From a virus: a DNA stretch of 59,154 nt. Shown in pieces: positions 1,071-47,197 of the stretch. Location: the IMG/VR virus record IMGVR_UViG_3300047469_000385, positions 1 through 59,154 of that record; one strand, given 5' to 3'. The notes beneath the pieces are model-generated. The model made no database searches and was not told the DNA's origin. It saw only the letters and a program-made list of their open reading frames with translations. Each line of letters begins with the position of its first letter. Positions within the stretch are counted from its first letter, which is position 1. Made by a program: the position numbers and the translations under genes.

Positions 1071-2264
1071 TTATCTCTGTACCAATTTTGTACCAATCTG
1101 GCTTTCCAACTTCCCGACTTCAGACCAGTCGGTGGTGGAGCTCAGCCAGCGAGCGTATGTCGACAGTAACACTTGGACGCTGTGGCCCAGTTGTCCGGCG
1201 ATGAACGCCGGGTTCATGCCTGCCATGAGGCACATCGTAGCGTACGTGTGGCGGCAGTTATATTGGCTGCGTGGCTTTATTTTCAGAGCCTCCAAAGCCT
1301 TGGCGAAGTGACCGCCCGGCGTGGTTGCACCGAGGATGTATTCCGAACTTCCCGATGGCGGAAATACATAGGGCGACGACTGGCGTTTACGCCGGCGCTG
1401 AGTCAACCGCGCGTCGGCAATTTTCTTCGCTTCTGCCAAAGCATGCAGTGCCCGGCTGTTGAGCATCACCGTCCGGGCGTACTTGGTCTTTGTCCTTTCC
1501 TCGACCTTCCCATCCACGACGATCCGGCAGACGTGCGCCACGCGCTTCTCCTGATCGATCTCATCCCAGCGAAGAGCCCTGAGCTCTCCCGTCCGCATCC
1601 CGCAATAGAAAGCAAACTCGAAGTACGCCGCATAGATCTGCGCCGCCCGCGTGGTGAAGTTGGCGTACATCCACTCGATGATGGCGTCAGCTTCAGCGAC
1701 CGTGAACGGATCGATCTGTTTCTTGGTTCGTCCAGGCAGTTGAATGGCGGTGGCCGGGTTTCGCTCAATCACCTCATCCCGCACGGCAGCCTTAAATAGG
1801 GCGCTGACCCGCGAGATCGCCGTCCGCTTGATGGTCGGGCTATCCCATTGCGTTTGCCCGATCACCCTTCTCAGCAGCATCGGCGTGATGGCGGTCATAG
1901 GTACTGTTGCCAGGTCCGGCATCCAGTACATATTGATCGTGCCTTTGTAGTTGCGCCGCGTGCCCGGAACAATCTCCAGGCTGTTGATCCATGTCTGGGC
2001 GTATTGAGCGAACGTCAGGCCGTTGGCCAGCGCTGAATAGCTGGAGTTCGGGAAGAGTTCGGCGTACCGCTTCTCGTCCAGAACCCCATGCTTGGCCAGG
2101 CTGATTACGTTATCGCGTAAATCTGCGGCCGCCTTGATCCCCTTTGGCGTCTGGGGATGGGCGAGAGTTTCACAGCGTCTTTCGCCGTTCCACGTGAACC
2201 GGATCCGGATTGATTGACCTGCAAACTCAACTCCTGCGGGCATTCCCACTGGCTTTCTTGCCAT
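1071..2264 (-). CDS. int: Prophage tyrosine integrase
   Basis: A 397-residue site-specific recombinase expected to integrate and excise the prophage. Residues 1-75 resemble the DUF3596 arm-binding domain, 80-175 the core-binding domain, and 185-385 the catalytic domain. Catalytic residues visible are R224 (CGMRTGE), K261, R338, H361 (GQLGHS) and the nucleophile Y370. The usual HxxR box reads YNCR, so its first residue is Tyr, as I recall from related phage integrases. The C-terminus (IGTKLVQ) is encoded by the GTACCAAT repeat. It lies at the left end, downstream of the excisionase-like gene, as in other lambdoid prophages. Confidence 0.95.
   Translation of the reverse strand: MARKPVGMPAGVEFAGQSIRIRFTWNGERRCETLAHPQTPKGIKAAADLRDNVISLAKHGVLDEKRYAELFPNSSYSALANGLTFAQYAQTWINSLEIVPGTRRNYKGTINMYWMPDLATVPMTAITPMLLRRVIGQTQWDSPTIKRTAISRVSALFKAAVRDEVIERNPATAIQLPGRTKKQIDPFTVAEADAIIEWMYANFTTRAAQIYAAYFEFAFYCGMRTGELRALRWDEIDQEKRVAHVCRIVVDGKVEERTKTKYARTVMLNSRALHALAEAKKIADARLTQRRRKRQSSPYVFPPSGSSEYILGATTPGGHFAKALEALKIKPRSQYNCRHTYATMCLMAGMNPAFIAGQLGHSVQVLLSTYARWLSSTTDWSEVGKLESQIGTKLVQR
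1079..1097. repeat. Paired GTACCAAT repeat, left end
   Basis: Two GTACCAAT units separated by TTT lie across the last codons and stop region of the integrase gene. A near-identical pair, with one extra T, lies at 58297-58316 in the same orientation. Both pairs sit about 60-110 bp inside the proposed 11-bp cores. They could be arm-type integrase binding sites, or alternatively the attachment core itself. Confidence 0.45.
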
Positions 2265-2449
2265 GCCTCATATCTCCTAATGCTATAAAAAACCCGATTA
2301 TCAATCTTGTTCCAAACCCCTTCGGGGATGATTCCGCGCGCCCGCTTTCCTTCAAGTGCGCGCTTTGTTGTGCTCAGCAACATGGCCATTCGCTCTTCAG
2401 GCACTTTGTCGAACGCGTAAATTTCGGGGAGTTCTTCTTTCTCGGACAT
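2105..2449 (-). CDS. Excisionase-like small protein
   Basis: A 114-residue basic protein directly upstream of, and overlapping by about 160 bp, the integrase gene. The start ATG at 2449 follows a GGAGA ribosome site; an earlier ATG at 2461 is less well placed. A central stretch (RGIIPEGVWNKIDNRVFYS) looks like the DNA-recognition part of phage excisionases, which bend attachment-site DNA and direct integrase toward excision. The Gln/Ser/Arg-rich C-terminus reads out of frame through the integrase start region. Assignment rests on position, size and this motif. Confidence 0.6.
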   Translation of the reverse strand: MSEKEELPEIYAFDKVPEERMAMLLSTTKRALEGKRARGIIPEGVWNKIDNRVFYSIRRYEAWQESQWECPQELSLQVNQSGSGSRGTAKDAVKLSPIPRRQRGSRRPQIYAIT

Positions 2450-2493
2450 AGCTGTCTCCATGCCGCGCGTGGCGGCAGAAGGTGGGGAGGGGT

Positions 2494-3240
2494 TTAAAGC
2501 AATGCGCCTTGGGTTGGCGCGATTTCGGGGATGTTGTAGGTCCAGCGCGGTGATGAATTGTGCGACTCAATTCGGCTGCGCATCACCGCTGCCCGAGCCT
2601 CTTTAGTAGGCGGCGAGTAGGTCCCTCGCCAAGCTTGGTCTATTCCAATGTTGCGGCCGATGTTCGTGCTGTCGGCGCTGGAGAGTGGCAGGTGGCTGAA
2701 AATCGCGGGGTCCAGCATTCGCAAGCCGTGAAGCTTGCACATTGGGCGGCCGTCATCGTCGCAAACCACCCGCATGGCCTTTCCCATCTGCACCCACCAA
2801 GCAGCGCTTCCTGGCTGCGAGTAGTCACCCGAGCTGCCGATGCACACTCTTGGCCATCCGCTCGCTAAGCGCTCAAGTCGCTCAAGGCTTTCGTGCATGT
2901 GCCACACCGGAGCGTCAAACCACCGAGGGAGTGGCCACTCTTCAAGTAATGCATCGTTCGCCTTCTCGTTACCGTCAATCACGTCGGGTATCACGGCGAA
3001 GTCGCACGCCGGAATCAACTTGGCGTCAGCTGCCCAGCAGTAGAACGGCTGCCAGTCGGTGACGGGTTTGCCTTGTTTCCAAGCCGAGAACGCCCCGTTG
3101 TCGATGGCGAACGACTGGCAAACTTGGGCTGCCAGTGCGAGTTGCCGGGGATCACTGAAACTTACAAAGGCGTGGCCGCCGCCAATCGCCGCGGCTGCCG
3201 CTGTCTCTGGTGTGATCGGCAAGCCGTGGTAATGGATCAT
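2494..3240 (-). CDS. Putative TGT/DpdA-superfamily protein
   Basis: A 248-residue soluble protein in the leftward early operon. Its layout, with DNGAFSAW near residue 47, PDVIDGN near 85, KLHGLRML near 165 and LPLSSADSTN near 185, recalls the barrel of queuine/archaeosine tRNA-guanine transglycosylases. It is closest in feel to the phage DpdA group, which exchanges guanine in DNA for a 7-deazaguanine. No preQ0 pathway gene is in the window, so substrate would come from the host. The similarity is from memory of motif order and is not proof of activity. The start overlaps the upstream stop (ATGA at 3237-3240). Confidence 0.4.
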   Translation of the reverse strand: MIHYHGLPITPETAAAAAIGGGHAFVSFSDPRQLALAAQVCQSFAIDNGAFSAWKQGKPVTDWQPFYCWAADAKLIPACDFAVIPDVIDGNEKANDALLEEWPLPRWFDAPVWHMHESLERLERLASGWPRVCIGSSGDYSQPGSAAWWVQMGKAMRVVCDDDGRPMCKLHGLRMLDPAIFSHLPLSSADSTNIGRNIGIDQAWRGTYSPPTKEARAAVMRSRIESHNSSPRWTYNIPEIAPTQGALL

Positions 3241-3479
3241 CCGCTAAGCCTCACTGTTTCAATTTCGACACCCTGGTGCGTGGCGATGATGGTTTGATCT
3301 CCGCCGATTTCCTCAGCCAACTGATCGGCTATCTGTTCGTGCCAGCCCTGCTTGATGATCGTCGCGGCCTTGATGTGTTCGACACGGATCATCGTCGGCG
3401 ACCTAACTTCCAGCCGATAGATGATCAATTCGCCGTCGGACGGGCAGACGGCTGCGAACGTATGTCGATAGATGTTCAT
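3237..3479 (-). CDS. Hypothetical phage protein
   Basis: An 80-residue protein of unknown function. Residues 1-45 suggest a small beta-rich fold and the rest is acidic (QLAEEIGGDQT). It overlaps both neighbours by 4 bp (ATGA), so it is probably translated by coupling within the early operon. No domain is recognised. Confidence 0.7.
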   Translation of the reverse strand: MNIYRHTFAAVCPSDGELIIYRLEVRSPTMIRVEHIKAATIIKQGWHEQIADQLAEEIGGDQTIIATHQGVEIETVRLSG

Positions 3480-3538
3480 CGCCTTGGCCCCGAGTAGATG
3501 AGCCAGGCCATGTAGGCGAGGGCGGCAATAGGGATCAT
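3476..3538 (-). CDS. Tiny hydrophobic coupled ORF
   Basis: A 20-residue hydrophobic peptide (MIPIAALAYMAWLIYSGPRR) that could span the membrane once and has a basic end. Its ATG overlaps the stop of the upstream gene and its TGA overlaps the ATG of the downstream gene, both as ATGA. That double coupling is the main reason to believe it is translated; it could also be only a translational bridge. Confidence 0.45.
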   Translation of the reverse strand: MIPIAALAYMAWLIYSGPRR

Positions 3539-3867
3539 GGCGTCACCTTCCGGCCCCAAACGCAGACAGGGCCTTGCTCTGCATCGTGAATGGAGAGGAT
3601 GAACCAGCCCGGTTCGGCGGAATGCTGGATCACCCACGCTGAGCAATCGACCTGGCCGTCATTCATGTAGGTGTCGAACACGTCGGCATCGACATCGCTT
3701 TCCATGTGCGTGATCTTCGTTTCCACCTGGTGGCGCGCGCACCAGTCGTTGAACTGTGCCTCAGTGATTTCATCGTCGAATTCGGAGAGGTAATTCGGAT
3801 GAGACCACCAGCCATCAGCGTCACGCTGTACCGGCAACGGTTGAATCAAGACAGTTTCTTCAGGCAT
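3535..3867 (-). CDS. Hypothetical acidic phage protein
   Basis: A 110-residue acidic protein (start ATG 3867, MPEETVL) of unknown function. It is rich in Trp, Asp and Glu, with DDEITEAQFNDW around residue 33 and an acidic run ESDVDADVFDTY near 55. It may be a DNA-mimic or small inhibitor, as many phage early proteins are, but nothing proves that. It belongs to the leftward early operon. Confidence 0.65.
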   Translation of the reverse strand: MPEETVLIQPLPVQRDADGWWSHPNYLSEFDDEITEAQFNDWCARHQVETKITHMESDVDADVFDTYMNDGQVDCSAWVIQHSAEPGWFILSIHDAEQGPVCVWGRKVTP

Positions 3868-3943
3868 GACTGTTCCTTGGCCGCTATAGCGGCTGACTTT
3901 GAAGGGGGAGGGAGTTACAGAGGGGTGGAGTACGGATGTACTC

Positions 3944-4246
3944 CTATGCTGCTGGCGCTGACTTTTGTTCATGCTCCAGCTCAGATGCGATCGAAGCAAT
4001 CTCGGCGAACAGCTTCTGCTGCTTCAGGTTTCGCTCTTCGTAGATGGCTTTCAGGTTGCGATTCAAAGCCGCTAGGGCCGAAGCGCGCGAGCTGTGAACC
4101 TGGCTTTCGTGGAGCATGTACGTCCGGCCTGGGCCTTGGTAGCACTTCGGTCCCGACTGGCGGCCCAGGCGCGCCCGTGCATGCAGCTCGATTCCCTCAA
4201 CTCGCCGCATCCGGACGTTGATCATCCAGAGTTCGGCGCCGCTCAC
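3944..4246 (-). CDS. Hypothetical phage protein, helical C-terminus
   Basis: A 100-residue protein starting with GTG at 4246, which overlaps the previous stop as GTGA. Residues 1-55 are basic; residues 55-95 are a charged helix (LNRNLKAIYEERNLKQQKLF) likely to form a coiled coil. Function unknown. The coupled start is preferred over upstream in-frame candidates because they would overlap the neighbouring gene more deeply. Confidence 0.6.
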   Translation of the reverse strand: MSGAELWMINVRMRRVEGIELHARARLGRQSGPKCYQGPGRTYMLHESQVHSSRASALAALNRNLKAIYEERNLKQQKLFAEIASIASELEHEQKSAPAA

Positions 4247-4809
4247 GGCTTCACCATTTCGTCGGGATCGAATCCGAATCGGCGGCAGATTGCGTTCGCC
4301 ACTCCGGACCCACAACCGAAAGCGTGCTTCATTGCTACCCAGCGTTGAGTGCCGCGCCGGTGGGTTCCGGACGCAGCTCGAACGGCTCGACCGATCAACT
4401 CATGCTCGCTGAACTCACAACCTGACAGGGTGATCTTGCGGCTTTCGATAAGCTGGGATTCAAGCTCGTCAATTCGCTGATCCGCTGCGTTCAGGCGCAG
4501 CTGCAGGGCGTCCCGTTCATCCCGGTAGCGCTGACCTTCCTTGTGCTTGCCGTGGGCAGAGTTGGCATTGATATCCACGAAGCGCATCTGGCGCTCCACC
4601 TCTTGGAGCAGCGCCTCATGTTCGGCGACGGGTAAAATCACCACAGCCAAAACCTCTTCGCCATGAAATTCTAGTCGGTCGGTCGCGGCAGGAATGGTTG
4701 CGAACACGGCTAATTGAACGCCGTCGGTTGCCGCAACTTCCAGTTGATCGGGAGTGTCGCCATACCCTTCACCAACAACTGCAAACGCTTTCAAGGTCTT
4801 GGCGCTCAT
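4243..4809 (-). CDS. Hypothetical coiled-coil phage protein
   Basis: A 188-residue protein with a compact N-terminal part (1-65), a long amphipathic helix (about 65-130, EVERQMRF through AADQRIDELESQ) and a basic C-terminal part with FGCGSGVANAICRRFG near 163. The tail could bind nucleic acid, but no family is recognised. The start overlaps the stop of the upstream DUF4406 gene (ATGA, 4806-4809). Confidence 0.65.
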   Translation of the reverse strand: MSAKTLKAFAVVGEGYGDTPDQLEVAATDGVQLAVFATIPAATDRLEFHGEEVLAVVILPVAEHEALLQEVERQMRFVDINANSAHGKHKEGQRYRDERDALQLRLNAADQRIDELESQLIESRKITLSGCEFSEHELIGRAVRAASGTHRRGTQRWVAMKHAFGCGSGVANAICRRFGFDPDEMVKP

Positions 4810-5120
4810 CCTGCAATCTCCATCGATACCAAATCATGGGCATTCACAACCGTCATGCCGAGGCGTTCAGCAATCAGCACTTCGAGGCGGGCGCCCTTTG
4901 AATGCTCCCAGCCCGGGAGCGTGGCCACCGTGTCGCAATCCATCAGGGCGGCGATGTCGCGGCGCATACAGTCGTTCCAGGAACCGCCGTCAGGATTGAG
5001 CTCAGCAGGGTTGGTGACGGTGTGACCGTTGGCGCGCAGATTGGCGGTCATTGCGGCGAAGGCGGGGAAGTTGAGGCCGGGCAGGCCGGTCATTGGCCCG
5101 CTGAGGTAGATGCGCTTCAT
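4806..5120 (-). CDS. DUF4406 domain protein
   Basis: A 104-residue protein with the family's opening IYLSGPMTG and the later DCDTVATLPGWEHSKGA segment. DUF4406 resembles nucleoside 2-deoxyribosyltransferases, with a small nucleotide-binding alpha/beta fold, and is common in phage early regions. Its reaction is not established; a role in nucleotide salvage or base exchange is inferred from the fold. It overlaps both neighbours by 4 bp. Confidence 0.85.
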   Translation of the reverse strand: MKRIYLSGPMTGLPGLNFPAFAAMTANLRANGHTVTNPAELNPDGGSWNDCMRRDIAALMDCDTVATLPGWEHSKGARLEVLIAERLGMTVVNAHDLVSMEIAG

Positions 5121-5395
5121 GCGGCCTCCGTGTCATGCCCTGGGCAACCATTGCCGGCGAAATCGAAACCTTCGCAGGGCGGCCCGAACGGCAGAACCTC
5201 TTTGCCCTGGGCCAGCGCTTCAAGCAGATGATCCTTCGCCTCGTCGGCGGTGCAATCACGGCCACCCTCAAGGCGAAACATGCCTTTGAGCTGGCGCTTG
5301 CTGAAATCCCGCAGCGCGCCGCGCACGCTCAGATGAATGTGGAAGGTACAACCGTTCGGGCCGAATGGATCTTCCGGTTTTTTTTCTGTAGGCAT
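5117..5395 (-). CDS. Hypothetical phage protein
   Basis: A 92-residue protein with HIHLSVRGALRDFSKRQLKG near residue 18 and a C-terminal Gly/Cys-containing tail (CEGFDFAGNGCPGHD). Related proteins appear in Pseudomonas prophages next to DUF4406 genes, from memory. It is the first leftward gene after the opposing cassette, so it depends on transcription passing through that cassette or on a local promoter that I do not see. Confidence 0.65.
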   Translation of the reverse strand: MPTEKKPEDPFGPNGCTFHIHLSVRGALRDFSKRQLKGMFRLEGGRDCTADEAKDHLLEALAQGKEVLPFGPPCEGFDFAGNGCPGHDTEAA

Positions 5396-5451
5396 GGGGC
5401 GTCCTATGCCGGGCCATGCCCGGGCGGTGGGGGGAGTAACTACGAAAGTGG

Positions 5452-5460
5452 TGGTATGAT
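5452..5460 (+). promoter_or_regulatory. Extended -10 promoter of the membrane cassette
   Basis: TGGTATGAT, an extended -10 hexamer with its TG motif, ends 25 bp before the ATG at 5486. No good -35 is visible, which extended -10 promoters tolerate. It would give the plus-strand cassette transcription independent of phage early control. Confidence 0.45.
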
Positions 5461-5485
5461 CCCGTGACGGTGTGGGAGCTGAGCA

Positions 5486-6016
5486 ATGGGATACAAAATA
5501 GCGTTTTACTGCGCGGCTGGCCTTTTTGTCGTTTTACTTGCGATATTGTGGTCGATAGGGATTTGGGCGAATGATAGTTTTTGGAGCGAAGCTAATAAGT
5601 ACGGTATTGTTTTTACTATAATCGGAACGTTGTTTGCATTTGGAACATTTTGTTATGTCGGAATGTTCGCTGATCGTCTTAAAAAAAAGCACAGGATTCC
5701 TGAGACTCATGATGATTTAGTCTTGCTTCTCAGAGATGTTAGGGAAGGGCTTAAGGATTGGAGTGGACGGCAAAATGACGTTATCGACCTACTCCATCAA
5801 ATTCGCGGACATCTTGAAAATGTTAGTCAAAAACTAGATGGTGTTGAAAAAAAATCTGCTGATCGTTTGGCTTCGTCTATCTCCAGGTCAAGCGTTTGGT
5901 ATGTCTTCAGACGGGATATTACTGAATATGAAGGATGGAAAATTCAGCGCCAGCTTCATAATTTTGTAACTTTGTTAAGAGCCAAACACCAAGATAATGA
6001 GGTGGAAAGGGTATGA
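5486..6016 (+). CDS. Two-span membrane protein with coiled coil
   Basis: A 176-residue protein of unknown function. Two membrane helices lie at about 5-28 and 39-62, followed by a basic KKKHR anchor and a long charged cytoplasmic part with heptad-like helices around 75-135 (LLRDVREGLKDW, LLHQIRGHLENV). GGAG precedes the ATG. The gene is AT-rich compared with its neighbours and faces against the leftward operon. The next gene starts inside its stop (ATGA). Such small membrane proteins in prophage early regions often act in exclusion or defence, but that is inference only. Confidence 0.8.
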   Translation: MGYKIAFYCAAGLFVVLLAILWSIGIWANDSFWSEANKYGIVFTIIGTLFAFGTFCYVGMFADRLKKKHRIPETHDDLVLLLRDVREGLKDWSGRQNDVIDLLHQIRGHLENVSQKLDGVEKKSADRLASSISRSSVWYVFRRDITEYEGWKIQRQLHNFVTLLRAKHQDNEVERV

Positions 6017-6372
6017 GTGATCCAAGAATAGTAAATATGATTGTTAGGCTAATCGAAGAAACTGTCACGGGTCGCGTTTCTTGGAAGATAGGCGATGCTC
6101 CGCGAGCCATGACCCTCGGCACTAATGATATCTACTCCCTGTTTGTGGAAACAGAATTTCGCGGTACCAGGTTTTGTATGTATGAGGTTCGCTCTAAACA
6201 CTATAGGGATGAAGATGATTTTTATTGGGTTGATTACGTGAACTTTGCAGTTCTAGATGATCGGGATCGAGTGCTTTGGACTGTGAAAGAGATCCCGGAA
6301 GTGTATGAGCTTTTCGCCGATGTTAAACGGAAGGTGGCGGGAGTCGACAAGCTTTTAGACTATTTCAGGTAG
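6013..6372 (+). CDS. Soluble partner of the membrane cassette
   Basis: A 119-residue acidic cytosolic protein, translationally coupled to the two-span membrane protein (start ATG 6013 overlaps its TGA). It has many aromatic residues (DDFYWVDYVNFAVLDD around 73) and no recognised domain or membrane segment. Coupling suggests a fixed ratio and perhaps a complex with its partner. Function unknown. It shares the low GC content of the cassette. Confidence 0.75.
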   Translation: MSDPRIVNMIVRLIEETVTGRVSWKIGDAPRAMTLGTNDIYSLFVETEFRGTRFCMYEVRSKHYRDEDDFYWVDYVNFAVLDDRDRVLWTVKEIPEVYELFADVKRKVAGVDKLLDYFR

Positions 6373-6496
6373 GCTTTTCATATTTCGCTATCTGGAGTTA
6401 TTTTTAGTCTCTACGATTCCTCGCCTGCTGGCGTGATTCGTTGAAGTGGGGGATTTGTGTTCGGCCCGGCATGGAGCCGGATTATGGAGAGCGGTA

Positions 6497-6994
6497 ATGA
6501 AAGAAAAGTTGGGGCTTTCCGGACGGTGCGGCTTTGCGCTGCTAGGGGTAGCGGTTGTTGCTCTGCCAATCGCTTACCTTTTTAAGGCAATCAATTTTGG
6601 GGCGTTCAGTGCGGTTGCAATGTTATGGCTGCTGGTATCGGTGGTCTTGATCTTCGGCGAAAGCATTACCGAGATCACGCTCTGGAAGGCGTCGATTAAA
6701 CGTGATGCAACAGCAACGCGGGTTGCGCGTGAAGAGGTTGAAGCTATTCGCGATCAGTTACGGAAAATATCCGCCGCATCGGTTGAAAACACATACATCA
6801 TTTCGGGGGAGCTATTGCTATTGTCGCATAGACTGTTTGGCGACGAACACGTGACAGCTATGAAAACAAGCCCCGGTACGCTCAGACTTTTCAAAAACAT
6901 GAATGATGTTTGGAAATTCGCTGAGCCCGACGAAACTAAAGCAGAGCAACTGCGTAAGCAATTCAGGAGAGAACTCGGGATGCTTGATCAGTAA
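6497..6994 (+). CDS. Second two-span membrane protein
   Basis: A 165-residue protein. Two membrane helices lie at about 11-30 and 35-54, followed by a helical cytoplasmic region (VAREEVEAIRDQLRKI near 77) and a charged C-terminus. The start ATG at 6497 has GGAG seven bases upstream; an earlier in-frame start at 6446 lacks a ribosome site. The layout matches the first cassette protein, two spans then a helical domain, but the sequences do not obviously align. It is separated from gene two by 124 bp and may be transcribed with it. Function unknown. Confidence 0.75.
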   Translation: MKEKLGLSGRCGFALLGVAVVALPIAYLFKAINFGAFSAVAMLWLLVSVVLIFGESITEITLWKASIKRDATATRVAREEVEAIRDQLRKISAASVENTYIISGELLLLSHRLFGDEHVTAMKTSPGTLRLFKNMNDVWKFAEPDETKAEQLRKQFRRELGMLDQ

Positions 6995-7045
6995 TCTGAT
7001 CTCTGAAATCCTGCTGAGCCTCCAGCAGGATCTGCCTTGCAGTGC

Positions 7046-7861
7046 TTACTTCGGATCGAACGAGCCGAGGGAGAGTGACGCGTTGGTTCCGATCTTCTCC
7101 TGCAGCACCGTCTTGAATTCCTGTGCGATGTCCTCGCGCTGAACTTCTTCCCCAACCCAGCGCAGCTTCAGCGCCGGCACTGCTCCACTAGTGATTACCG
7201 AAATTCGCAGATTGATCTGCTGTTCGGTCAAACCCTCGAACGGGATCACACTGAACAGCAGGGCGGCTGGCAGCGTTTCTTTGCTGCGAGCTTCGATCTG
7301 GTCCATTGCGCTGCGGCTGGCGCTGGTATCGCCGACGGTTGTTTCGGATTCGCTGGTCGCTTTGACGGTGATCGTGCGAACGGCCGCGATGGCCTTGGCC
7401 ACCGGGATGGCAGTGCCGGCGTCGTCAACGGGCGTCAGGTACTGGTGCCAGTCTTCAATCCAGTCGCTCAAATCCTTCTGAGTCATGCCCCGCCCGGCGA
7501 TTGCCTGTGCGGCGGTGTAGCCAGCGGTTGCTTTCAGTTTAAGGACGGCGCGGTCGTCCGCATGCCCTGGCACAGCAGTAGTGCCCAGATTGAACAGCAG
7601 CACGCAGCTCATTTCATCTTGATTGATGAAGCCTCGAGCACCGGCATCGGCGCGGTCCACCACGTAGGTGCTGAAGTCAGCGAGTGAATGGGTGGCGTAA
7701 GTGCCACGGAATCGGCTGCGACCGTTTTGAAACTTCTCCAGGTCGATGACTTTTGCACTTTCCGGAAGCACCACGGTAGGAATCAAGGTGTCCAGCGTCT
7801 TGCCAGTGGCTTCCAGCGCGGTGTCGGTGATGAGTTGAATTGCTTCTTTCGTGAGGGACAT
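7046..7861 (-). CDS. DUF2303 (YfdQ-like) protein
   Basis: A 271-residue cytosolic protein recognised as the YfdQ/DUF2303 family, common in the recombination/early region of lambdoid phages and of unknown biochemistry. Family features visible are the FRGTYATHSLADFSTYV stretch near residue 51, the central DWIEDWHQYL and the C-terminal VGEEVQREDIAQEFK. It normally sits beside a partner of about 115 residues, as here. It is convergent with the plus-strand cassette, with 51 bp between stops. Confidence 0.85.
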   Translation of the reverse strand: MSLTKEAIQLITDTALEATGKTLDTLIPTVVLPESAKVIDLEKFQNGRSRFRGTYATHSLADFSTYVVDRADAGARGFINQDEMSCVLLFNLGTTAVPGHADDRAVLKLKATAGYTAAQAIAGRGMTQKDLSDWIEDWHQYLTPVDDAGTAIPVAKAIAAVRTITVKATSESETTVGDTSASRSAMDQIEARSKETLPAALLFSVIPFEGLTEQQINLRISVITSGAVPALKLRWVGEEVQREDIAQEFKTVLQEKIGTNASLSLGSFDPK

Positions 7862-7896
7862 ATTTCAGGTCTCTATTGGGGAAGGGCTGTGGGGGA

Positions 7897-8244
7897 TCAG
7901 GTGCGGCGCGGGATTGGCGCCTCATCCCGGGTGAACATTTGGTCGTGCTTCTCGGCGAACAGCGAGATCTTGCCGCCGCTGCCGACGTGCATCGGCGTGT
8001 CGAGACTGGTGTTCTCGCTGCGGGTACCGCGCTTCGTCGGCACCTTGTAGTCGAGCTTGTGCTTGATCTTCACCTGACTGGATTCGCCGATCTGGCTGAA
8101 GTCCAAGGTGATCACCAGCTTGCCGACCTTGCCGTGGTCGACTACCCCGGCGGCTACTTCGGAAAGGGCATGTCCGATTTGGCTGGCGAACGCGCCGCCG
8201 TTTAGCTCTTCGAGGAACTCGGCGGTATCGGTTGGGGTTGGCAT
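7897..8244 (-). CDS. DUF2303-associated phage protein
   Basis: A 115-residue protein upstream of the DUF2303 gene in the same operon. It is mostly beta-rich with KVGKLVITLDFSQIGESSQVKI near residue 39, and ends in a basic tail. In related phages the two genes travel together, so a joint function is likely, but it is unknown. GGAGA lies upstream of the ATG at 8244. Confidence 0.7.
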   Translation of the reverse strand: MPTPTDTAEFLEELNGGAFASQIGHALSEVAAGVVDHGKVGKLVITLDFSQIGESSQVKIKHKLDYKVPTKRGTRSENTSLDTPMHVGSGGKISLFAEKHDQMFTRDEAPIPRRT

Positions 8245-8339
8245 GGATGTTTCTCCGGGATGGCCAACAGGCCGCTAGGGGGAAGGTTGAATTGCGATTG
8301 GCGAAGGCGCTGGCGCACCTGGTTGTTGATGCGTTTCAT
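8202..8339 (-). CDS. Small coupled basic ORF
   Basis: A 45-residue reading frame starting at ATG 8339, which overlaps the upstream stop as ATGA. The N-terminal half is basic (MKRINNQVRQRLRQ) and could contact nucleic acid; the C-terminal half is Pro/Ser rich and overlaps the next gene by 43 bp. The coupled start supports translation, but the overlap leaves doubt. Confidence 0.4.
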   Translation of the reverse strand: MKRINNQVRQRLRQSQFNLPPSGLLAIPEKHPCQPQPIPPSSSKS

Positions 8340-8797
8340 GCTGCTTTCTGCTGGCTCCAGATTCCCGCGGCGTCAAACACCCGGGCGGCCTGTTCTTCAG
8401 TCAGTGAGACTTCGGCGGGGATGGCGATCCAGCCCGAGGCCACCCGATGATTCGGATTGCTCTCGGCGACCAGGTCCTTGTAGGTTTCCTCGATCACGTC
8501 TTCGAGGTGCACAGCCAGATAGTTGCCTTGGGGCGCAACCTCGACTGACTTGGTGTAGCGATGCCCGCGCTGATCGCGACACTGGACGCTGACATAGATC
8601 GTCCAGCGGTGGGCAACGTCGCAGACCGCGTCGGCGATGCGCTGGCCCGGCGGGATGCTCTTGCAGTTCTTCCAGTTGATCATGCCTTGGCGACCGCTTG
8701 GGTCGATGTTTACTACCGCGACGTGGTTGGTGCTGAGCAGAGCCCGGCAGGACCGCTCTATCCGGGCTTGCATGTTGTTAGGTTTGCGCTTACTCAT
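8336..8797 (-). CDS. Hypothetical phage protein
   Basis: A 153-residue protein, basic at the N-terminus (MSKRKPNN), with a central domain containing HVAVVNIDPSGRQGMINWKN near 25 and an acidic helix EDVIEETYKDLVAES near 98. Function unknown. It overlaps both neighbours by 4 bp, so it is an integral part of the early operon. Confidence 0.7.
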   Translation of the reverse strand: MSKRKPNNMQARIERSCRALLSTNHVAVVNIDPSGRQGMINWKNCKSIPPGQRIADAVCDVAHRWTIYVSVQCRDQRGHRYTKSVEVAPQGNYLAVHLEDVIEETYKDLVAESNPNHRVASGWIAIPAEVSLTEEQAARVFDAAGIWSQQKAA

Positions 8798-9027
8798 AGA
8801 GACTCCGTGATACGCCTCAGTGCGATCCGCTCTGCGTGGGATGGGGAAGGGCGGCGGCGCTTCAAGATGGTGCCGGGATCGATCTTGTCCGAGCGGGGCG
8901 GACGTTGCTCTGGCTTGAAGTCGGCAGCCGGTTCAGCCTTGCCGCCAGCGCCAAAGAACTGATCAATTTTTCGGTTTATGTCGTCGATCATCGCGTCTCG
9001 CGGGTTACGCATTGGTACGCCGATCAC
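8794..9027 (-). CDS. Hypothetical phage protein
   Basis: A 77-residue basic protein with a Lys/Arg/Pro-rich middle (PEQRPPRSDKIDPG, ILKRRRPSPS). The start is taken as GTG 9027 because it overlaps the upstream stop (GTGA); ATG 9012 is the alternative. Possibly nucleic-acid binding, judging only from charge. Confidence 0.6.
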   Translation of the reverse strand: MIGVPMRNPRDAMIDDINRKIDQFFGAGGKAEPAADFKPEQRPPRSDKIDPGTILKRRRPSPSHAERIALRRITESL

Positions 9028-9299
9028 TGCGCACCTGCCTTCAGGTGGGAGGCCTGATTCTCAAACTGGATCGCCATATCCAGCGCCGCTTGGTAGGTCC
9101 AGCGAAAGGCCTTGGTTTTGTTGGTGACCAGGTCGACGACGTGATAGGCCTTGCCTACCGTCTTCACCTGAAAGCGCACTTTCTTCTCAGGCATCGCCAA
9201 ACCGACGAGACGGGCGAACTCTCCACGGGCTGCATGGGTGCGAATCATCAAGGCGCCGAGGACATCCCGGCGCTGTTGCATCAGTTGGTGCATTTGCAT
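9024..9299 (-). CDS. Hypothetical phage protein
   Basis: A 91-residue protein starting MQMHQLMQQ at 9299 behind GAGGGA. It contains EKKVRFQVKTVGKAYHVVDL near residue 39, followed by an Ala-rich helix. Function unknown. It is the first gene after a 134-bp gap in the otherwise tightly packed operon (9300-9433). Confidence 0.65.
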   Translation of the reverse strand: MQMHQLMQQRRDVLGALMIRTHAARGEFARLVGLAMPEKKVRFQVKTVGKAYHVVDLVTNKTKAFRWTYQAALDMAIQFENQASHLKAGAQ

Positions 9300-9433
9300 G
9301 GTTGATCCCTCGGTTTGGGTTGAACCGTCAGGTAATCCTTGGCGGTTAACGGAAAGAAATTTCCAGTTAGGTGCAATTTGTTTCCGAGTTGGTTGCATCC
9401 CACTGCCCACTCAGAGAATGGGCAGAAGTGATG

Positions 9434-9583
9434 CTATCGAGCGAAGCGAAACCACATCACCATGCCCAGAGCGAGACCAGAGATGACTCCGGCCAGGTAT
9501 GCGATGGAGATGATGTGAAGAAAGCTCGCTCCCACAAGCAGGGAAAGGCCCAGCAGGATTGCAGTGAGCAAGCGGCTGATCAC
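9434..9583 (-). CDS. Small two-span membrane protein
   Basis: A 49-residue, very hydrophobic protein starting with GTG 9583, which overlaps the stop of the TAXI-like gene (GTGA). Two membrane helices are likely (about 4-22 and 25-45) with a basic tail FRFAR. Its coupling to a secreted binding protein is notable: it could be a membrane partner of that protein, although it is far too small to be a TRAP permease. Confidence 0.6.
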   Translation of the reverse strand: MISRLLTAILLGLSLLVGASFLHIISIAYLAGVISGLALGMVMWFRFAR

Positions 9584-10467
9584 CGCACCACCTTCACGAC
9601 GCTGTTGATGCCCTTGTCGACGGCGCGCCGAACTTTCTTGGCCTCATCCGGCGACAGGCTTGCCAGGTAGTCGTTGTTGAACACGATCTGGGCGCGCAGA
9701 CAGTAGGTCTTCGGGTCCTTGAAACTGTTCGAAGTGTCGAGGCCGCTACGTGCTTCCTTGGGAACCGCGCAGTGGCGATAGAGCGGGTTGTTGTTGGCGT
9801 CTTTTGAGTCTTCGAACGAGCTGTCGTTGACCTCGCCGATCAGGATTTGCTTGCCGAAGTCTTCAGTGATGTCGCTGGTGATCGCACCGGCTCGGCCGAT
9901 GTACAGCATGCCGGCGATCTCGATTCGAACTCCGGCCTTGCTCACGTAGCCCTGGCTAACTGCCTCGGCCGCGCTGTACCAGCTGTCGAACTCGACGATG
10001 CGCGCACCCTCGTAGTCCTTGTCGGTCTTGATCCAGTTGCGCACCGTCACCAGCGCACCCGATCCGGACACCGCGGCGAAGGCGTACTTCTTCGCGACGC
10101 TGTCGTCCTCCATCTTGCCGAAGTCATCGACACCGGCCTTGCTGTGCAGCCAGTAAACGACCTCTTCGTGAGCATCGGTCACCTTGATGTCCGCCGGCAT
10201 CGGCAGGCTGATCACCGAATCGTTTTGAATGACCGCGATGTCGCAGGCGCCGTCCTTCAGTTTCTCGGCGTTCTCGACGCTACCGCCGGTGTTGATCACC
10301 TTGAGGTCGCTGCCGGTCTGCTTGGTGACTGCGCTCCCGATTGCGGATCCGAGTTTCTCGTAGAAGCCACCTTCACCGCCCGTGCAGAAGCGGAGGGTGG
10401 GTGGTGCTGCGCTGGCCATGGCTGAAACACTCAGCAGCACGGCCAGCAATAACGCTTTCGATTTCAT
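9580..10467 (-). CDS. Periplasmic TAXI-type solute-binding protein
   Basis: A 295-residue secreted protein. Residues 1-22 form a Sec signal peptide (ending MASA). The mature part opens with TLRFCTGGEGGFYEKLGSAI and continues with INTGGSVENAEKLKDGACDIA, the pattern of TAXI-family TRAP substrate-binding proteins, which use it to hold the ligand. Four Cys residues could form disulfides in the periplasm. No TRAP membrane subunits are present, so it may bind a ligand or surface factor for the lysogen, or work with the 49-residue membrane protein encoded just after. The start at 10467 gives the proper signal peptide. Confidence 0.75.
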   Translation of the reverse strand: MKSKALLLAVLLSVSAMASAAPPTLRFCTGGEGGFYEKLGSAIGSAVTKQTGSDLKVINTGGSVENAEKLKDGACDIAVIQNDSVISLPMPADIKVTDAHEEVVYWLHSKAGVDDFGKMEDDSVAKKYAFAAVSGSGALVTVRNWIKTDKDYEGARIVEFDSWYSAAEAVSQGYVSKAGVRIEIAGMLYIGRAGAITSDITEDFGKQILIGEVNDSSFEDSKDANNNPLYRHCAVPKEARSGLDTSNSFKDPKTYCLRAQIVFNNDYLASLSPDEAKKVRRAVDKGINSVVKVVR

Positions 10468-10490
10468 GGGCGTTCCTCTGGGTTGGGGGA

Positions 10491-10530
10491 TTTCCCAATG
10501 CAGCCTGGTGCCAAGCTGCATCAGTGAAAT
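10491..10530 (-). promoter_or_regulatory. 5'-UTR hairpin, copy 1
   Basis: On the minus strand, TTTCACTG then a 7-bp stem ATGCAGC/GCTGCAT then TGGGAAA; the outer TTTC and GAAA can also pair across an internal loop. It sits between the stop at 10530 and the start of the TAXI-like gene at 10467. The same element with a changed but still paired stem base lies at 10862-10899. This points to a functional RNA structure. Confidence 0.6.
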
Positions 10531-10841
10531 CAGATGACTGCCGTAAGTGTTTTGGAGCCATCTGCATGCGTGGTGGTGATGTGCATTGCAGAGGCGTTTT
10601 GTGATCGGTGCCCTTGTCGGATGATCTGAGCGGACCTGTTGAAGCGCTCGTTTTTGTTATCGTCTCCATCAGGTAGGTGGGTCGTGCAGGTCAGGCTGGT
10701 ACAGTCTTCGCCGTTCGGGCCTTCGCCGTCATGAGCAATGTCGAAGCTGGCGATCATCGCGATGCCGTGTTCTCGAGTAATTGCGATGATCTGTTGCATG
10801 AGCGGGCTGATCTGGCTGTCGTAAATCTCTTCTTTGTTCAT
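10530..10841 (-). CDS. Hypothetical phage early protein
   Basis: A 103-residue protein and the first gene of the leftward operon after PL. It starts at ATG 10841 (MNKEEIYD). The middle (IAMIASFDIAHDGEGPNGEDC) suggests a small alpha/beta fold; function unknown. Similar small proteins occur at this position in other Pseudomonas prophages, from memory. A conserved hairpin lies about 20 bases upstream of the start. Confidence 0.7.
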   Translation of the reverse strand: MNKEEIYDSQISPLMQQIIAITREHGIAMIASFDIAHDGEGPNGEDCTSLTCTTHLPDGDDNKNERFNRSAQIIRQGHRSQNASAMHITTTHADGSKTLTAVI

Positions 10842-10861
10842 TCGGTGGTTGCTCCGGTTGT

Positions 10862-10899
10862 TTTCCCAATGCACCCGTCACCAGGTGCATCAGTGAAAA
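10862..10899 (-). promoter_or_regulatory. 5'-UTR hairpin, copy 2
   Basis: Second copy of the hairpin at 10491-10530. The flanks TTTCACTG and TGGGAAA are conserved, while the stem is ATGCACC/GGTGCAT, so the C-G pair replaces a G-C pair by a compensatory change. It lies in the PL leader, 20 bases before the first early gene. Confidence 0.6.
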
Positions 10900-11133
10900 T
10901 TCCGTCCAATTACCGCCGGAGGGGCGGAGCGCATTGCTTGCCGGGTCATTCACACGGTTAAGGCGTTTCACCATCGATCAGCCGTACAGGTTGTTCCTGT
11001 CGTTGGCAGGCTTTCGGGCCTGTCTGCTCGCCGGTCGCCGGTAGAGGCAATGCGGTCTGTTGTTTGTTGCGCTGACTGTTAAAGAGCTGCGCGGCTTTCG
11101 CTGCTGGGCCGGTGACGCGTTGGCTTGAGGTGA
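10900..11133 (-). other. Untranslated PL leader
   Basis: About 230 bp of leader between the PL promoter and the hairpin copy at 10862. No convincing gene is present. GCAGCTCTTTAACAGT on the minus strand around 11085 has a weak likeness to an antitermination boxA (CGCTCTTTA), so a nut-like site is possible but not shown. Confidence 0.35.
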
Positions 11134-11162
11134 ATTTAAGCAAGCTGAAATTATTGAGTCAA
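11134..11162 (-). promoter_or_regulatory. PL early leftward promoter
   Basis: On the minus strand TTGACT (11162-11157), a 17-bp spacer and TTAAAT (11139-11134), close to the sigma-70 consensus. Operator copies cover both hexamers, as expected for repressor control. It drives the leftward early operon toward the integrase. Confidence 0.75.
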
Positions 11163-11194
11163 GCATTCTGAAGAAATAAATTCAGCATGCTGAA
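11136..11194. promoter_or_regulatory. OL operator cluster, three sites
   Basis: Three related 14-bp sites spaced 22-23 bp apart: TTAAGCAAGCTGAA (11136-11149), TCAAGCATTCTGAA (11159-11172) and the perfect palindrome TTCAGCATGCTGAA (11181-11194). The last is repeated exactly at 12369-12382 beside cro. The arrangement matches lambda-type OL. Confidence 0.8.
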
Positions 11195-11205
11195 TATGGT
11201 AGGCC

Positions 11206-11231
11206 TAAAAAAGCCCGCATTGCGCGGGCTT
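11206..11231 (-). terminator. Terminator after the cI-distal gene
   Basis: AAGCCCGC / GCGGGCTT type stem at 11211-11231 with a T-run on the minus strand. It ends leftward transcription from the repressor region before PL. Confidence 0.75.
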
Positions 11232-11234
11232 CTT

Positions 11235-11486
11235 TCAGAGTTCGACGTAACTCTTCCATCCGATATGTACGCAATCCTGATCCAAGCGCTCAACCGTAAT
11301 CCCATAAGTTTCATCTAGCTCATGGAGCACTCGCTCCCAGGCTTCGGGCGCCTCATCTTCTCGCCTGGTAACTCTTACCGCCTGATGCTTCTGCACCTTG
11401 GGATCTGAAACCATTTTCTGAATTCGACGGCCCACGTGCTCGTAGGAATTGGGTACGAAGGTAATGTTGGTTGCGCTCTGGTTCAT
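11235..11486 (-). CDS. Small protein between cI and PL
   Basis: An 83-residue protein, start ATG 11486 (MNQSATN). It is charged, with RRIQKMVSDPKVQKHQAVRV near 20 and an acidic middle. It has terminators both upstream (11593-11613) and downstream (11211-11231), so it probably has its own promoter and is expressed in the lysogen, the position of rexAB in lambda. Function unknown; lysogenic conversion or exclusion is an inference from position. Confidence 0.65.
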   Translation of the reverse strand: MNQSATNITFVPNSYEHVGRRIQKMVSDPKVQKHQAVRVTRREDEAPEAWERVLHELDETYGITVERLDQDCVHIGWKSYVEL

Positions 11487-11587
11487 GAAGTCTTCCTTGG
11501 AGTAACTGTATGGATAAACAGTATTTGATTCATAGGAAAACGGCAATACGGAGAGAGTACATTTGTACTCTTTTAGGGGGGCAGGCG

Positions 11588-11613
11588 AAAAAAAGCCCGC
11601 ACTGGGCGGGCTT
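11588..11613 (-). terminator. Terminator after the repressor gene
   Basis: Stem AAGCCCGC/GCGGGCTT (11593-11613) with a seven-T run on the minus strand, 33 bp after the repressor stop. It would end the repressor transcript. Confidence 0.75.
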
Positions 11614-11645
11614 GTGTTGTTCCGTAGCTTAGTGTTTATGGGCCT

Positions 11646-12302
11646 TTACAGCTTTCCGGTCATACGCACTGCAACGCCGATGATTTTGCAGCTCTCATCT
11701 AGCTCAACCATCTTGTAAGCAGGGTTCAACGGCTTCAAATATCTCACTCCACCGTCGTCAACAAGCTTCTTGAAGGTGGCTTCATTGCTGGCCGGTAGCT
11801 TGGCGATCACCAGCTTCCCAGGCTTAACGTCGGCCTCAGTGTCGACCAGTATCAGCATGCCTTCGGGCACGCTGGTTCCGGTTGGTGCCGTCATTGAGTC
11901 GCCTTTTACCTCAAGCCAAAACGCCGGTCCTTTGGAGTCATAGTCAGAAAGCTCATAGCGATCCGAAAAACCGTCCGGGTAGGGTTGGACTGCCTCTTCC
12001 CATGAGCCAGCCGAAACCCAACTGATCACTGGGTACCGGAACATAGCGCTGGGCTGGGTTACCAGTGCCACATTGGATTCTTCACTTGGGTCTCTTTCAG
12101 GACCCTCGCCAATCGCCAGCCATTCAGCTCTAAAGCCGGTAGCTTTCGCAAGGGCGTAAAGATTTTCGGGCCTCAAGCTTTTGCTCTCGCCGGAAATCCA
12201 CTGAGTCACGGCCGAGTTTGCGACTCCGCAAGCGGTGGCAATTTCGCCCTTCTTTTTGCCGCTGGCCGCGATGGCTTTGGCGATACGTTCGTGTCTATCC
12301 AT
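11646..12302 (-). CDS. cI: CI-type repressor with S24 autoprotease
   Basis: A 218-residue prophage repressor. Residues 1-65 form an HTH_3/XRE DNA-binding domain (helices around GEIATACGVANSAVTQW). Residues 90-215 are a LexA/CI-type S24 peptidase with cleavage site A98-G99, nucleophile S136 (GDSM) and general-base K178 (TFKKL). It should hold OL and OR in the lysogen and cleave itself with RecA filaments, so the prophage is expected to be SOS-inducible. It is divergent from the Cro-like gene across the OR region. Confidence 0.92.
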   Translation of the reverse strand: MDRHERIAKAIAASGKKKGEIATACGVANSAVTQWISGESKSLRPENLYALAKATGFRAEWLAIGEGPERDPSEESNVALVTQPSAMFRYPVISWVSAGSWEEAVQPYPDGFSDRYELSDYDSKGPAFWLEVKGDSMTAPTGTSVPEGMLILVDTEADVKPGKLVIAKLPASNEATFKKLVDDGGVRYLKPLNPAYKMVELDESCKIIGVAVRMTGKL

Positions 12303-12326
12303 GGGCCAATATTAAGTTAACTGAAT

Positions 12327-12382
12327 TTAAGCATGAAGCTTGCTGAAGGATTCCTTGACCTTTTTAACTTCAGCATGCTGAA
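12327..12382. promoter_or_regulatory. OR operator region
   Basis: Contains the perfect palindrome TTCAGCATGCTGAA (12369-12382), identical to the OL copy, and a degenerate site TGAAGCTTGCTGAA (12334-12347) that overlaps a further half site TTAAGCAT at 12327. It lies between the divergent repressor and Cro-like genes. Confidence 0.75.
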
Positions 12383-12384
12383 AT
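12355..12384 (+). promoter_or_regulatory. PR early rightward promoter
   Basis: TTGACC (12355-12360), an 18-bp spacer and TGAAAT (12379-12384). The perfect operator palindrome sits over the spacer and -10, so repressor binding would block it. The -10 is a poor match, so the exact element is uncertain. Confidence 0.5.
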
Positions 12385-12411
12385 TAAGGCATGCTCCAAC
12401 GAGGAAGCGAA

Positions 12412-12588
12412 ATGAAGACCCAACAAGTCGCCGAGTTTTTCGGCAACAAAAAGAAATTGGCTGAAGCCCTGGGTATCAAGCCAAGCGCTGTGACCATGTG
12501 GGGCGACACCATCCCTGTCTCCAGGCAGTACCAGATCGAAGTCCTGTCGAAGGGCAAGTTCAAGGCTACTCCTACGCTTGCCGCGTAA
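12412..12588 (+). CDS. cro: Cro-like regulator
   Basis: A 58-residue DNA-binding protein, start ATG 12412 behind GAGGAAG. The helix-turn-helix runs through QQVAEFFGNKKKLAEALGI and PSAVTMWGDTIP, the pattern of lambda/P22-type Cro proteins. Divergent from the repressor; expected to bind the same operators and favour lytic growth. Confidence 0.85.
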   Translation: MKTQQVAEFFGNKKKLAEALGIKPSAVTMWGDTIPVSRQYQIEVLSKGKFKATPTLAA

Positions 12589-44929: not shown

Positions 44930-45060
44930 AGCAGGAGGTCCTTTTCGGCGAAGGGAAAAGCGGTGCGTCAAACTAGAGGGTGGGAGCTCGTAGAGCAGGC
45001 TTGGGGGTCATGGTTTCCGAGGTCCTTTTTCACATAACACCGTTACTCGAAACGCCGTCT

Positions 45061-45294
45061 TTAGTGTTGCGCCCAGGCATACACGCGCTGGTTGATTTCA
45101 CTCAGGCCGCCGTCACGGGTGATCCACTCCTCGCCGGTCCGCCGGCACTGCGCTTTCAGCTCTTCGACACTGATGCCGTGAATGGCGGCGACGGCTGGGG
45201 CGAGTTTCTCCAGCGTCTCCCCGCCGTCGCGCAGGGTGACGAACATCAGGTGATGCTTGGGCCAAGTGGCGAAAGGGTTGAGCGGTGGGATCAT
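45061..45294 (-). CDS. Hypothetical phage-region protein
   Basis: A 77-residue protein. ATG 45294 is ten bases from AAGGAG; ATG 45303 is too close to it. It has HHLMFVTLRDGGETLEKLAP near 13 and INQRVYAWAQ at the end. Found near prophage ends in Pseudomonas, from memory. Function unknown. Confidence 0.6.
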   Translation of the reverse strand: MIPPLNPFATWPKHHLMFVTLRDGGETLEKLAPAVAAIHGISVEELKAQCRRTGEEWITRDGGLSEINQRVYAWAQH

Positions 45295-45537
45295 CGTGAT
45301 CATGCTCCTTGGATGGTGATTACCCAGTGTAGGCGCCACCAGCGGCGTAGGTTAGCGTGGGCAAGTGCCATTTCTTGATCGGTATTTCGCTCCAATGCAC
45401 AGCATTCTTTATGCCACAGTTAAACGCTATGCATCGAAGCGGTGCAGCCTGATGTGCAGCCAATACGCCGCTATTGGCGGATGAAGAAAGCGAGTAATGC
45501 AACCCAATGTTGGGGCTTTTTCCATGAGGTTGGGGAT

Positions 45538-45726
45538 TCAATAGTGAGCTTTTAATCTAACTTTTATCAGCGTATTCCTGGGTGCGCTGTATTGCATATA
45601 AGCGAAGCTCTTTGTCCTTCGTGGGTGAAGTAAGCCTAGCCAGCACTCATGAAATAAATAATAGCAATAGAAAATCATTGCTAGTAACGTAAAGCTAATG
45701 GCGAAATCAGTAAGTCGTGGTTTCAT
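45538..45726 (-). CDS. Possible small membrane protein
   Basis: A 62-residue frame with one membrane helix (FAISFTLLAMIFYCYYLF) and a basic C-terminus, in an AT-rich stretch. GTGGA lies upstream of ATG 45726. Doubtful but plausible. Confidence 0.35.
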   Translation of the reverse strand: MKPRLTDFAISFTLLAMIFYCYYLFHECWLGLLHPRRTKSFAYMQYSAPRNTLIKVRLKAHY

Positions 45727-45906
45727 TTGATAAAATTCCACAGAAACATTTTGTTACAAATATTGCATCAATCAATTGGCACGCACTAAGGGGCATTGAT
45801 CTATACCCATTTCAACCGGTCGCCAGTTCGATTCGTCCTCGCGAAAATTGAGTCTGTCTTCCAAGCTAATGGTGTTTTTTGTATCTCCAGTGCATGAGGC
45901 TGCAAC

Positions 45907-46593
45907 ATGACCCAATTTAGGAAGTTCTATGACCAAATAAAGAAGAAAGGATTTCGACGTACAGTTAAAACTCTCTGGGAGCGTTACGTATTTTTCCACT
46001 GGGAGTTGCTTTGGATGGAGCGTGATTTGATCACGCCGGTATCACCTCACAAATTAAGACCTTATACCTCAGTTAGTTTAGTGACCATAGATACAGATAA
46101 TGCGATTGCGTTCTCTAAGCATTTTGGTGATCGCGTGGACACCATGCGCGAACTGGTATCGGAAGGCCATACGGGACATATGTATCTAGATGACAAAGGC
46201 GACGCCATTGCCTTCATATGGGCAAGCGAACGCGACTACCATGACCGCCATTACTATGGCTGCCGGTTTCCGGTCAAAGCGGGAGAATTTTTTGAGTTTG
46301 GCGGAGAAATGACACGTCCTTATTTTGGGACAAGTCTTTCAGTCGATGCCCAAATTGCATTATGGAAAACCATGCAAGCCAAGGGATTGAACAAGGTGGT
46401 GGATGTCTGTGAGACGCACAATATTCCGGCGCTCAAATTGCACATTCGCATGGGCTATCATGAGCAGGGCCGGATTACGCATGTATACGGATTGTTTGGG
46501 CGATGGCGGTTATTCCGAGAAACTCACTATAGCGGCTCACGCCTGGATACGTTTCGAAATCCAGTGAAATCTGCTCTCCCGGTTCCTGTGTGA
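45907..46593 (+). CDS. GNAT-type acetyltransferase, surface polysaccharide type
   Basis: A 228-residue protein. The C-terminal half (110-215) has the GNAT fold with FEFGGEMTRPYFGTSLSV, KVVDVCETHNIPALKLHIRMGY (split) near 178. The basic N-terminus with YDQIKKKGFRRTVKTLWERY resembles proteins in exopolysaccharide/LPS clusters. AT-rich compared with the phage genes. It could acetylate an O-antigen precursor. Confidence 0.7.
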   Translation: MTQFRKFYDQIKKKGFRRTVKTLWERYVFFHWELLWMERDLITPVSPHKLRPYTSVSLVTIDTDNAIAFSKHFGDRVDTMRELVSEGHTGHMYLDDKGDAIAFIWASERDYHDRHYYGCRFPVKAGEFFEFGGEMTRPYFGTSLSVDAQIALWKTMQAKGLNKVVDVCETHNIPALKLHIRMGYHEQGRITHVYGLFGRWRLFRETHYSGSRLDTFRNPVKSALPVPV

Positions 46594-46748
46594 CACACAA
46601 GTTTTGTTTACTTACTGATGCTAGACTCGCTTATTTCGCTCATGCCGGAGAGGGGGCGATAACGAGGGCGAAGTTGATTAGTCGTTGTCTGCGCATGACG
46701 GTTACAACCATTGGGTCCGGTGTATAAGGCCTGTCGAGGTCGGCAAAA

Positions 46749-46961: not shown

Positions 46962-47197
46962 ATGGATCTCGAGGAATCGAAGCGGTCTTTGCTCCTTGTA
47001 TGCAACGCTTATAACCTAAAGTGATTCCTCCATCCTGGCGATGCGAAACACGCAGAAGAGCAAGTGAAAGTTGAAGAGTGAATGCAATAGACCGGTTTAT
47101 TAGTTACATTTTTTTCGAGTGAATCAGCTTGCATTTCGTAGCAGGCACATAAAAGCCTCTCGGGGTATCTACTACAATTAACCCAAGGGAGTCATTC

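Follow-up and report, generated by a model that had tools for sequence, protein, structure and literature searches.

Why does a prophage carry three AT-rich genes facing against its own early operon, and do these genes form one system? The window, that is, the whole 59,154-nucleotide stretch of IMG/VR record IMGVR_UViG_3300047469_000385, is a lambda-like Pseudomonas prophage by gene content and layout. ORFs surrounding the locus, from the integrase (1071-2264) through cI (11646-12302), are on the minus strand. Between 1071 and 11546, every native early ORF runs leftward, and the only rightward exception is the region 5486-6994, so the opposite orientation pointed out in the sequence-only reading is borne out. 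A putative leftward early promoter pL (11133-11198, minus strand; TTGACT, 18 nt, TAAATT) carries two operator-like repeats (11133-11153 and 11178-11198). Matching repeats lie at 12309-12329 and 12366-12386, between the gene for a CI-type repressor (11646-12302, minus strand) and a Cro-like ORF (12412-12588, plus strand), such that both promoters of the immunity region have operator-like repeats. The native genes that flank the locus are recognizable in related phages. On the left, the start of a minus-strand early gene (5117-5395; MPTEKKPEDPFG...) abuts the locus and homologues of its product (MPTENKP...) are left of the equivalent site in L007, L004, and L175. On the right, the minus-strand gene at 7046-7861 (MSLTKEAIQ...) is homologous in L004 and L131. 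Two other stretches of the prophage stand out. Positions 3855-3930, overlapping a native early gene (..FKVSRYSG..VMPEE) at its start, form a conserved block with about 85-92% DNA identity in phiAH14a, L004, L007, L008, and L175, and 45001-47000, on the right-hand side of the prophage, is a second AT-rich stretch (49% GC).

The three plus-strand ORFs are gene 1 (P0001, 5486-6016, 176 aa), gene 2 (P0002, 6013-6372, 119 aa), and gene 3 (P0003, 6497-6994, 165 aa). Their GC contents of 40.1%, 44.4%, and 49.0% are below those of the flanks (58.4% for 1071-5395 and 57.1% for 7046-12302), in agreement with the lower GC noticed earlier. All three have homologues that are 36-76% identical in protein sequence, and Ka is far lower than Ks (0.15 and 1.2, respectively, for P0003 and its homologue in L004; in the other comparisons, Ka is 0.17-0.37 and Ks is saturated). 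Judged by these substitution patterns, all three are real genes under purifying selection. They also show the mosaic presence and deviating composition expected of prophage morons, in that they are inserted between native genes, have 40-49% versus 57-58% GC, and occupy a site with many different occupants elsewhere, and in that a homology block of cassette size covers the gene 3 region.

Comparison across loci indicates that the genes are two neighboring units rather than the single three-gene cassette proposed from the sequence. Cassette A (5486-6372) has genes 1 and 2, and cassette B (6419-6994) has gene 3 along with its own leader (6419-6496), which had been overlooked. Co-occurrence, which had been proposed as a check, holds for genes 1 and 2 (adjacent in five of five loci, window included) and fails for gene 3, which travels alone, is found at other sites, was never seen with the pair in other loci, and has a leader common to dozens of cargo families. 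The view that both units are self-promoted fits the layout, with an extended -10 motif preceding cassette A and a separate leader preceding cassette B.

In cassette A, the putative promoter is the extended -10 motif TGGTATGAT (5452-5460, plus strand); the relative in genome G049 (L175) retains TGNTATGAT and has TGATATGAT at the equivalent place. Gene 1 is predicted to encode a membrane protein with helices at residues 3-27 and 35-69 followed by a long helical cytosolic tail, in a single-sequence model of low confidence (pLDDT 54). Two spans had been assigned to the membrane proteins of this locus, which is supported for those of the window, but three of the four gene 1 relatives have the second span alone. 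An R.P motif past the second span is invariant in the family. Gene 2, for a soluble protein, overlaps gene 1 by 4 nt and is coupled to it in translation, as had been suggested; its relatives (27-53% identity) each adjoin a gene 1 relative. The pair is present in four further Pseudomonas genomes at 21-64% identity (gene 1/gene 2: G049, 64/53%; G139, about 37/42%; G197, 36/42%; and the more diverged G397, 21/27%). A related prophage in G049 has it at the site that it occupies in the window; in G139, it is at a different site of such an operon and behind another cassette; and in G197, its chromosomal surroundings include genes for an ATPase of the AAA_15/AbiEii type and for a D12 DNA methylase. 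Gene 3 is absent beside the pair in all four. The gene 2 family was not found among 393 Pseudomonadota genomes outside of Pseudomonas, nor in viral contigs.

The site of cassette A is a hotspot. The cassette starts directly after a boundary motif, TATGCC.GG.CATGCC.GG (5405-5423, plus strand), which is present in 53 distinct loci, many with differing plus-strand genes behind it. Alternative occupants include putAbiC-like genes, genes predicted to encode two-span (2TM) proteins, and in L007, a gene that matches SLATT_5 (5e-35). The location had been called typical of exclusion and anti-phage genes, and these occupants support that description. Another frequent occupant encodes a zinc-ribbon-like protein of ~77 aa (C..CG...CP.CG.Y..SGTA...), which is behind the boundary in L054, L068, L103, L114, L193, and L195. 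Cassette A lacks the leader of cassette B, and the hotspot is all that it has in common with the cassettes that carry this leader.

Homologues of gene 3, among them those of L003-L010, L131-L133, and G156, were found in a few genomes and in eight viral contigs, none with genes 1 and 2, and overall gene 3 is without the pair in about a dozen other loci. Its AlphaFold model (pLDDT 79) has a helix at residues 7-28 and a continuous helix at 34-114, the latter predicted to be the second span plus a cytosolic stalk. The first ~85 residues are constant in the family, with two spans and an invariant WKASIKRD, and the C-terminal part is variable and of at least two types. Homologues in L008 (5001-5471), L009 (2030-2524), and L010 (5001-5468) share the membrane and stalk part and differ in their C-terminal parts, which suggests domain swapping within the gene. 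Homology to L003 extends from position 6418 to 6995 of the window, from leader to stop codon, and the block in L003 is at a different site of the operon, beside a cytosine methylase gene. In the case of L004, homology starts at 6460, within the leader, upstream of which L004 has a gene for a different membrane protein. From these alignments, the whole cassette is the unit of exchange. A 9-bp hairpin 3' of the cassette (7008-7031, plus strand) is not a classic intrinsic terminator because it has no T-run.

The leader of cassette B consists, on the plus strand, of a boundary CCTCGCC (6419-6425), a 29-nt promoter core (6426-6454), a hairpin, CCGGC-ATGGA-GCCGG (6466-6480), and a Shine-Dalgarno sequence, GGAGAG (6486-6491). 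It has a -35-like TGGCGT (6429-6434) and, after a 17-nt spacer, a -10-like GATTTG (6452-6457) that is altered at the first base relative to the consensus TATTTG. With the core (two mismatches), CCTCGCC, hairpin, and a same-strand ORF directly downstream, cassette B belongs with the shared-leader cassettes (nhmmer E = 1.5e-17 at 6416-6475). The exact core is in at least 120 viral-contig stretches of IMG/VR, and with up to three mismatches it is in 79 of 399 Pseudomonas species genomes (0 for a reversed control pattern). Bases of CCTCGCC are 87-96% conserved among leader copies, though they were not used in selecting the copies. An opposite-strand ORF starts within 90 nt upstream in 122 of 166 copies, and 18 of 20 sampled chromosomal copies are less than 10 kb from homologues of proteins of the window prophage. 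Leader cassettes also occur in tandem, and related copies of the leader are carried by D14H and by H66-group phages of Pseudomonas aeruginosa. In phage H66 itself, an unannotated ORF (MPDFRIVEIVFDDTKVYY...; L164 4030-4460) is behind a clear leader, a gap in the annotation of the record.

Genes carried behind the leader are diverse. Among 167 distinct copies, 146 have a same-strand ORF just downstream, and these form 86 protein clusters, of which a few small singletons may be spurious ORFs and 31 have a hydrophobic span by a crude test. The commonest cargo (17-19 copies; leader variant CACACTGGCAGGAGGCCGACATG) is a 62-aa protein (MRLQSDVDALAAIEEDAKAMLKR...), found in L007 (4234-4464), L010 (4692-4922), L123 (5508-5693), and others, with no Pfam or PHROG match. 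We scanned 84 representatives, about 80 of them leader-headed and the others site-mates. Matches included SLATT_5 (the L007 gene at the cassette A site), putAbiC/AbiP (two), a TIR effector, PD-T7-4, candidate PDC models, DUF4145, and DUF5677, and roughly 76 of the 84 had no match to a defence model. The putAbiC/AbiP and TIR-like matches are among the cargo headed by the leader. About nine copies look empty, in that the next native gene's stop codon comes directly after the leader; examples are in L002 (5942-6005) and L166 (4001-4062), which are from phiAH14a and UFJF_PfDIW6, respectively, and in L145 and L135. Such copies are possibly empty landing sites. L051, L059, L098, and L104 were removed from this group because the 62-aa cargo is present and shadowed by a longer antisense ORF. 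Two copies have unusual surroundings. In L159 (G103 C36), an apparent insertion-sequence end directly follows the core, as if the promoter had been interrupted, and in phage Cruim01 (L167 6172-7562), a retron-type reverse transcriptase and an RT-15 RNA are near a partial leader-like copy.

Patterns of conservation in the leader resemble those of a promoter. Of 65 hairpin leaders without the core, 32 have 23 nt between the start of TGGC and the start of TAT, and every other distance occurs at most twice. The arrangement TGGC-19 nt-TAT is present in 74 of 113 distinct upstream regions, versus a shuffled mean of 0.2, and persists in six spacer lineages that have diverged from one another. Two conserved boxes held 17 nt apart, with the sequence between them free to vary, are as expected of a -35/-10 promoter, and we infer that the leader is active as one. 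Because the boxes, TGGCNN and TATNNN, fit sigma-70 poorly, transcription may require an activator or a different sigma factor, and the window copy, with GATTTG in place of TATTTG, may be weak. A classical sigma-70 scan had no match at the start of either cassette. Other explanations of the leader were rejected. A sigma-54 promoter is inconsistent with the sequence, in which the GG-N10-GC pattern is missing. As for an RNA element, the leader has no Rfam match, and its hairpin is conserved in sequence, covaries weakly, and folds no better than shuffles. The core contains GCTGGCGT, one base off the Pseudomonas syringae Chi site, GCTGGCGC (PMC5959072). We do not claim Chi as the cause of conservation because the conserved stretch spans 36 nt and the 7-mer itself is common.

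Profile searches with Pfam, PHROG, PADLOC, and NCBIfam placed none of the three proteins in a family, which upholds the impression from sequence that none was recognizable. Matches to PADLOC models and to the SieB Pfam family were absent up to an E-value of 10, and neither a PDB sequence search nor Foldseek found a relative of the cassette proteins. Coiled-coil matches of gene 1 were compositional and were rejected as kinship.

SieB of phages lambda and P22 is a small membrane exclusion protein of the left early region, expressed by the prophage. The cassettes resemble it in location and in encoding small membrane proteins, but these are different proteins with no Pfam match. SieB also has an antisense RNA, sas (PMC7067206). 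SLATT effectors (PF18160 and the reverse transcriptase-associated SLATT) similarly combine two spans with a helical cytosolic part, yet no SLATT profile matches gene 1 or gene 3; that these models work is evident from the SLATT_5 match of the L007 gene. The putAbiC/AbiP models (PF16872 and AbiP) match other cassette cargo and not the window proteins. RexAB of lambda and RexABpp of Pseudomonas putida are two-gene prophage exclusion modules of a soluble and a membrane protein, a composition like that of pair A (PMC12894663). RexABpp, however, is encoded within the repressor operon, and RexB and RexA are a four-span protein and a DNA-binding protein, respectively (PMC12894663). Gene 1 has at most two spans, and pair A has no family match, RexAB included.

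Other precedents bear on layout. Tab of Pseudomonas phage JBD26 is a single minus-strand moron with its own promoter and provides constitutive prophage defence (PMC10884400). Like the cassettes, it is small and opposite in strand to its neighbors, and they too have putative promoters of their own, but it is in the late region, between terminase genes, encodes an unrelated protein, and has no shared leader described. Antisense morons with their own promoter also have precedent (PMC7067206). P2/P4 hotspots are fixed prophage sites with interchangeable anti-phage cargo (PMC9122126). The sites described here also have interchangeable cargo, with a probable anti-phage role; unlike P2/P4, there are several sites per early operon, the cargo is antisense, and a common promoter and leader are carried with it. 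In the Tha/Ith system of Staphylococcus aureus phages, a noncontiguous operon switches prophage immunity through antisense transcription (PMC11087260). Opposing transcription would likewise switch the cassettes between lysogeny and induction, though in Tha/Ith it is the defence gene that belongs to the cI operon, with an antisense gene as its inhibitor.

We suggest, with a probability of about 0.6, that the locus consists of two adjacent self-promoted moron cassettes set against a CI-repressed pL operon, most likely functioning in exclusion or anti-phage defence in the lysogen. In a lysogen, CI would hold pL off, and because pL is silent, the cassettes could be read from their own promoters. 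Upon induction, pL transcription would cross them antisense and should lower their expression, which should spare the phage's own growth. We infer this shut-off from the layout, with precedents in other phages (PMC10884400; PMC7067206; PMC11087260). Pair A would most likely be a two-component exclusion or abortive-infection module of a membrane effector and a soluble sensor or regulator. Cassette B would most likely encode a membrane-anchored superinfection-exclusion or defence effector, with recognition by its variable C-terminal part. It is one member of a large set of interchangeable cassettes in which boundary, predicted promoter, and leader are common and cargo is unrelated. A broader and more tentative possibility is that Pseudomonas phages have a cassette-capture system in which the leader is a landing pad for exchanged antisense cargo, and that pair A is a new defence system in the hotspot. 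The leader would be empty or filled and could be stacked in tandem, and it would recruit unrelated genes, among which anti-phage effectors are enriched.

Several alternatives merit consideration. The genes could serve lysogenic conversion with no anti-phage role, for instance in envelope or stress physiology, with the leader providing low-level expression in the lysogen. In its favor, most of the cargo lacks a match to defence models, and part of it is small and secreted-like or Zn-ribbon-like. Against it, defence effectors turn up repeatedly among these cassettes and at the cassette A site, and a chromosomal copy of pair A neighbors AAA ATPase and methylase genes. We consider this reading unlikely, though the most plausible of these alternatives. 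Pair A could instead stabilize the prophage as a toxin-antitoxin module, with gene 1 a membrane-active toxin and gene 2 a cytosolic antitoxin. Two small coupled genes for a membrane and a soluble protein, paired in all five loci, would suit such a module; the lack of a match to any toxin-antitoxin family and of a recognized DNA-binding domain in gene 2 make it improbable.

Still less probable is that all three genes make up a single operon and a single system. Genes 2 and 3 are on the same strand, 124 nt apart, and since no intrinsic terminator is between them, read-through is possible; the altered -10 of cassette B could even make gene 3 depend on it. Against this, no gene 3 homologue in the other loci seen is accompanied by genes 1 and 2, and all four relatives of pair A are without gene 3. 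Least credible is that gene 1 or gene 3 encodes a holin or other lysis-related membrane protein. Beyond the two spans, this idea draws on a Phage_holin_3_6 score for gene 1 (E = 0.21) that at 12.1 bits is far under the 28.4 cut-off, and we rejected the match. Location in the early region and on the opposite strand, long cytosolic tails, and the lack of a recognized lysis-gene neighbor also speak against it.

Self-promoted morons and prophage defence hotspots are already known (PMC9122126 for hotspots). In the open-access literature, we found no description of the shared leader or of either protein family; a cassette with a common promoter and boundary that serves dozens of cargoes, as well as the protein families of cassettes A and B, thus appear undescribed in the literature searched. 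The cassettes add two families of membrane proteins, and in one of them the soluble partner is constant. If the reading of self-promoted exclusion cassettes holds, dozens of uncharacterized Pseudomonas phage genes that are expressed in lysogens can be recognized by a single short DNA signature. Genes so marked include homologues of known defence effectors, and the leader could be used to list candidate anti-phage genes missed by profile searches. The counter-oriented layout within the left operon further predicts that induction of pL silences the phage's own exclusion genes.
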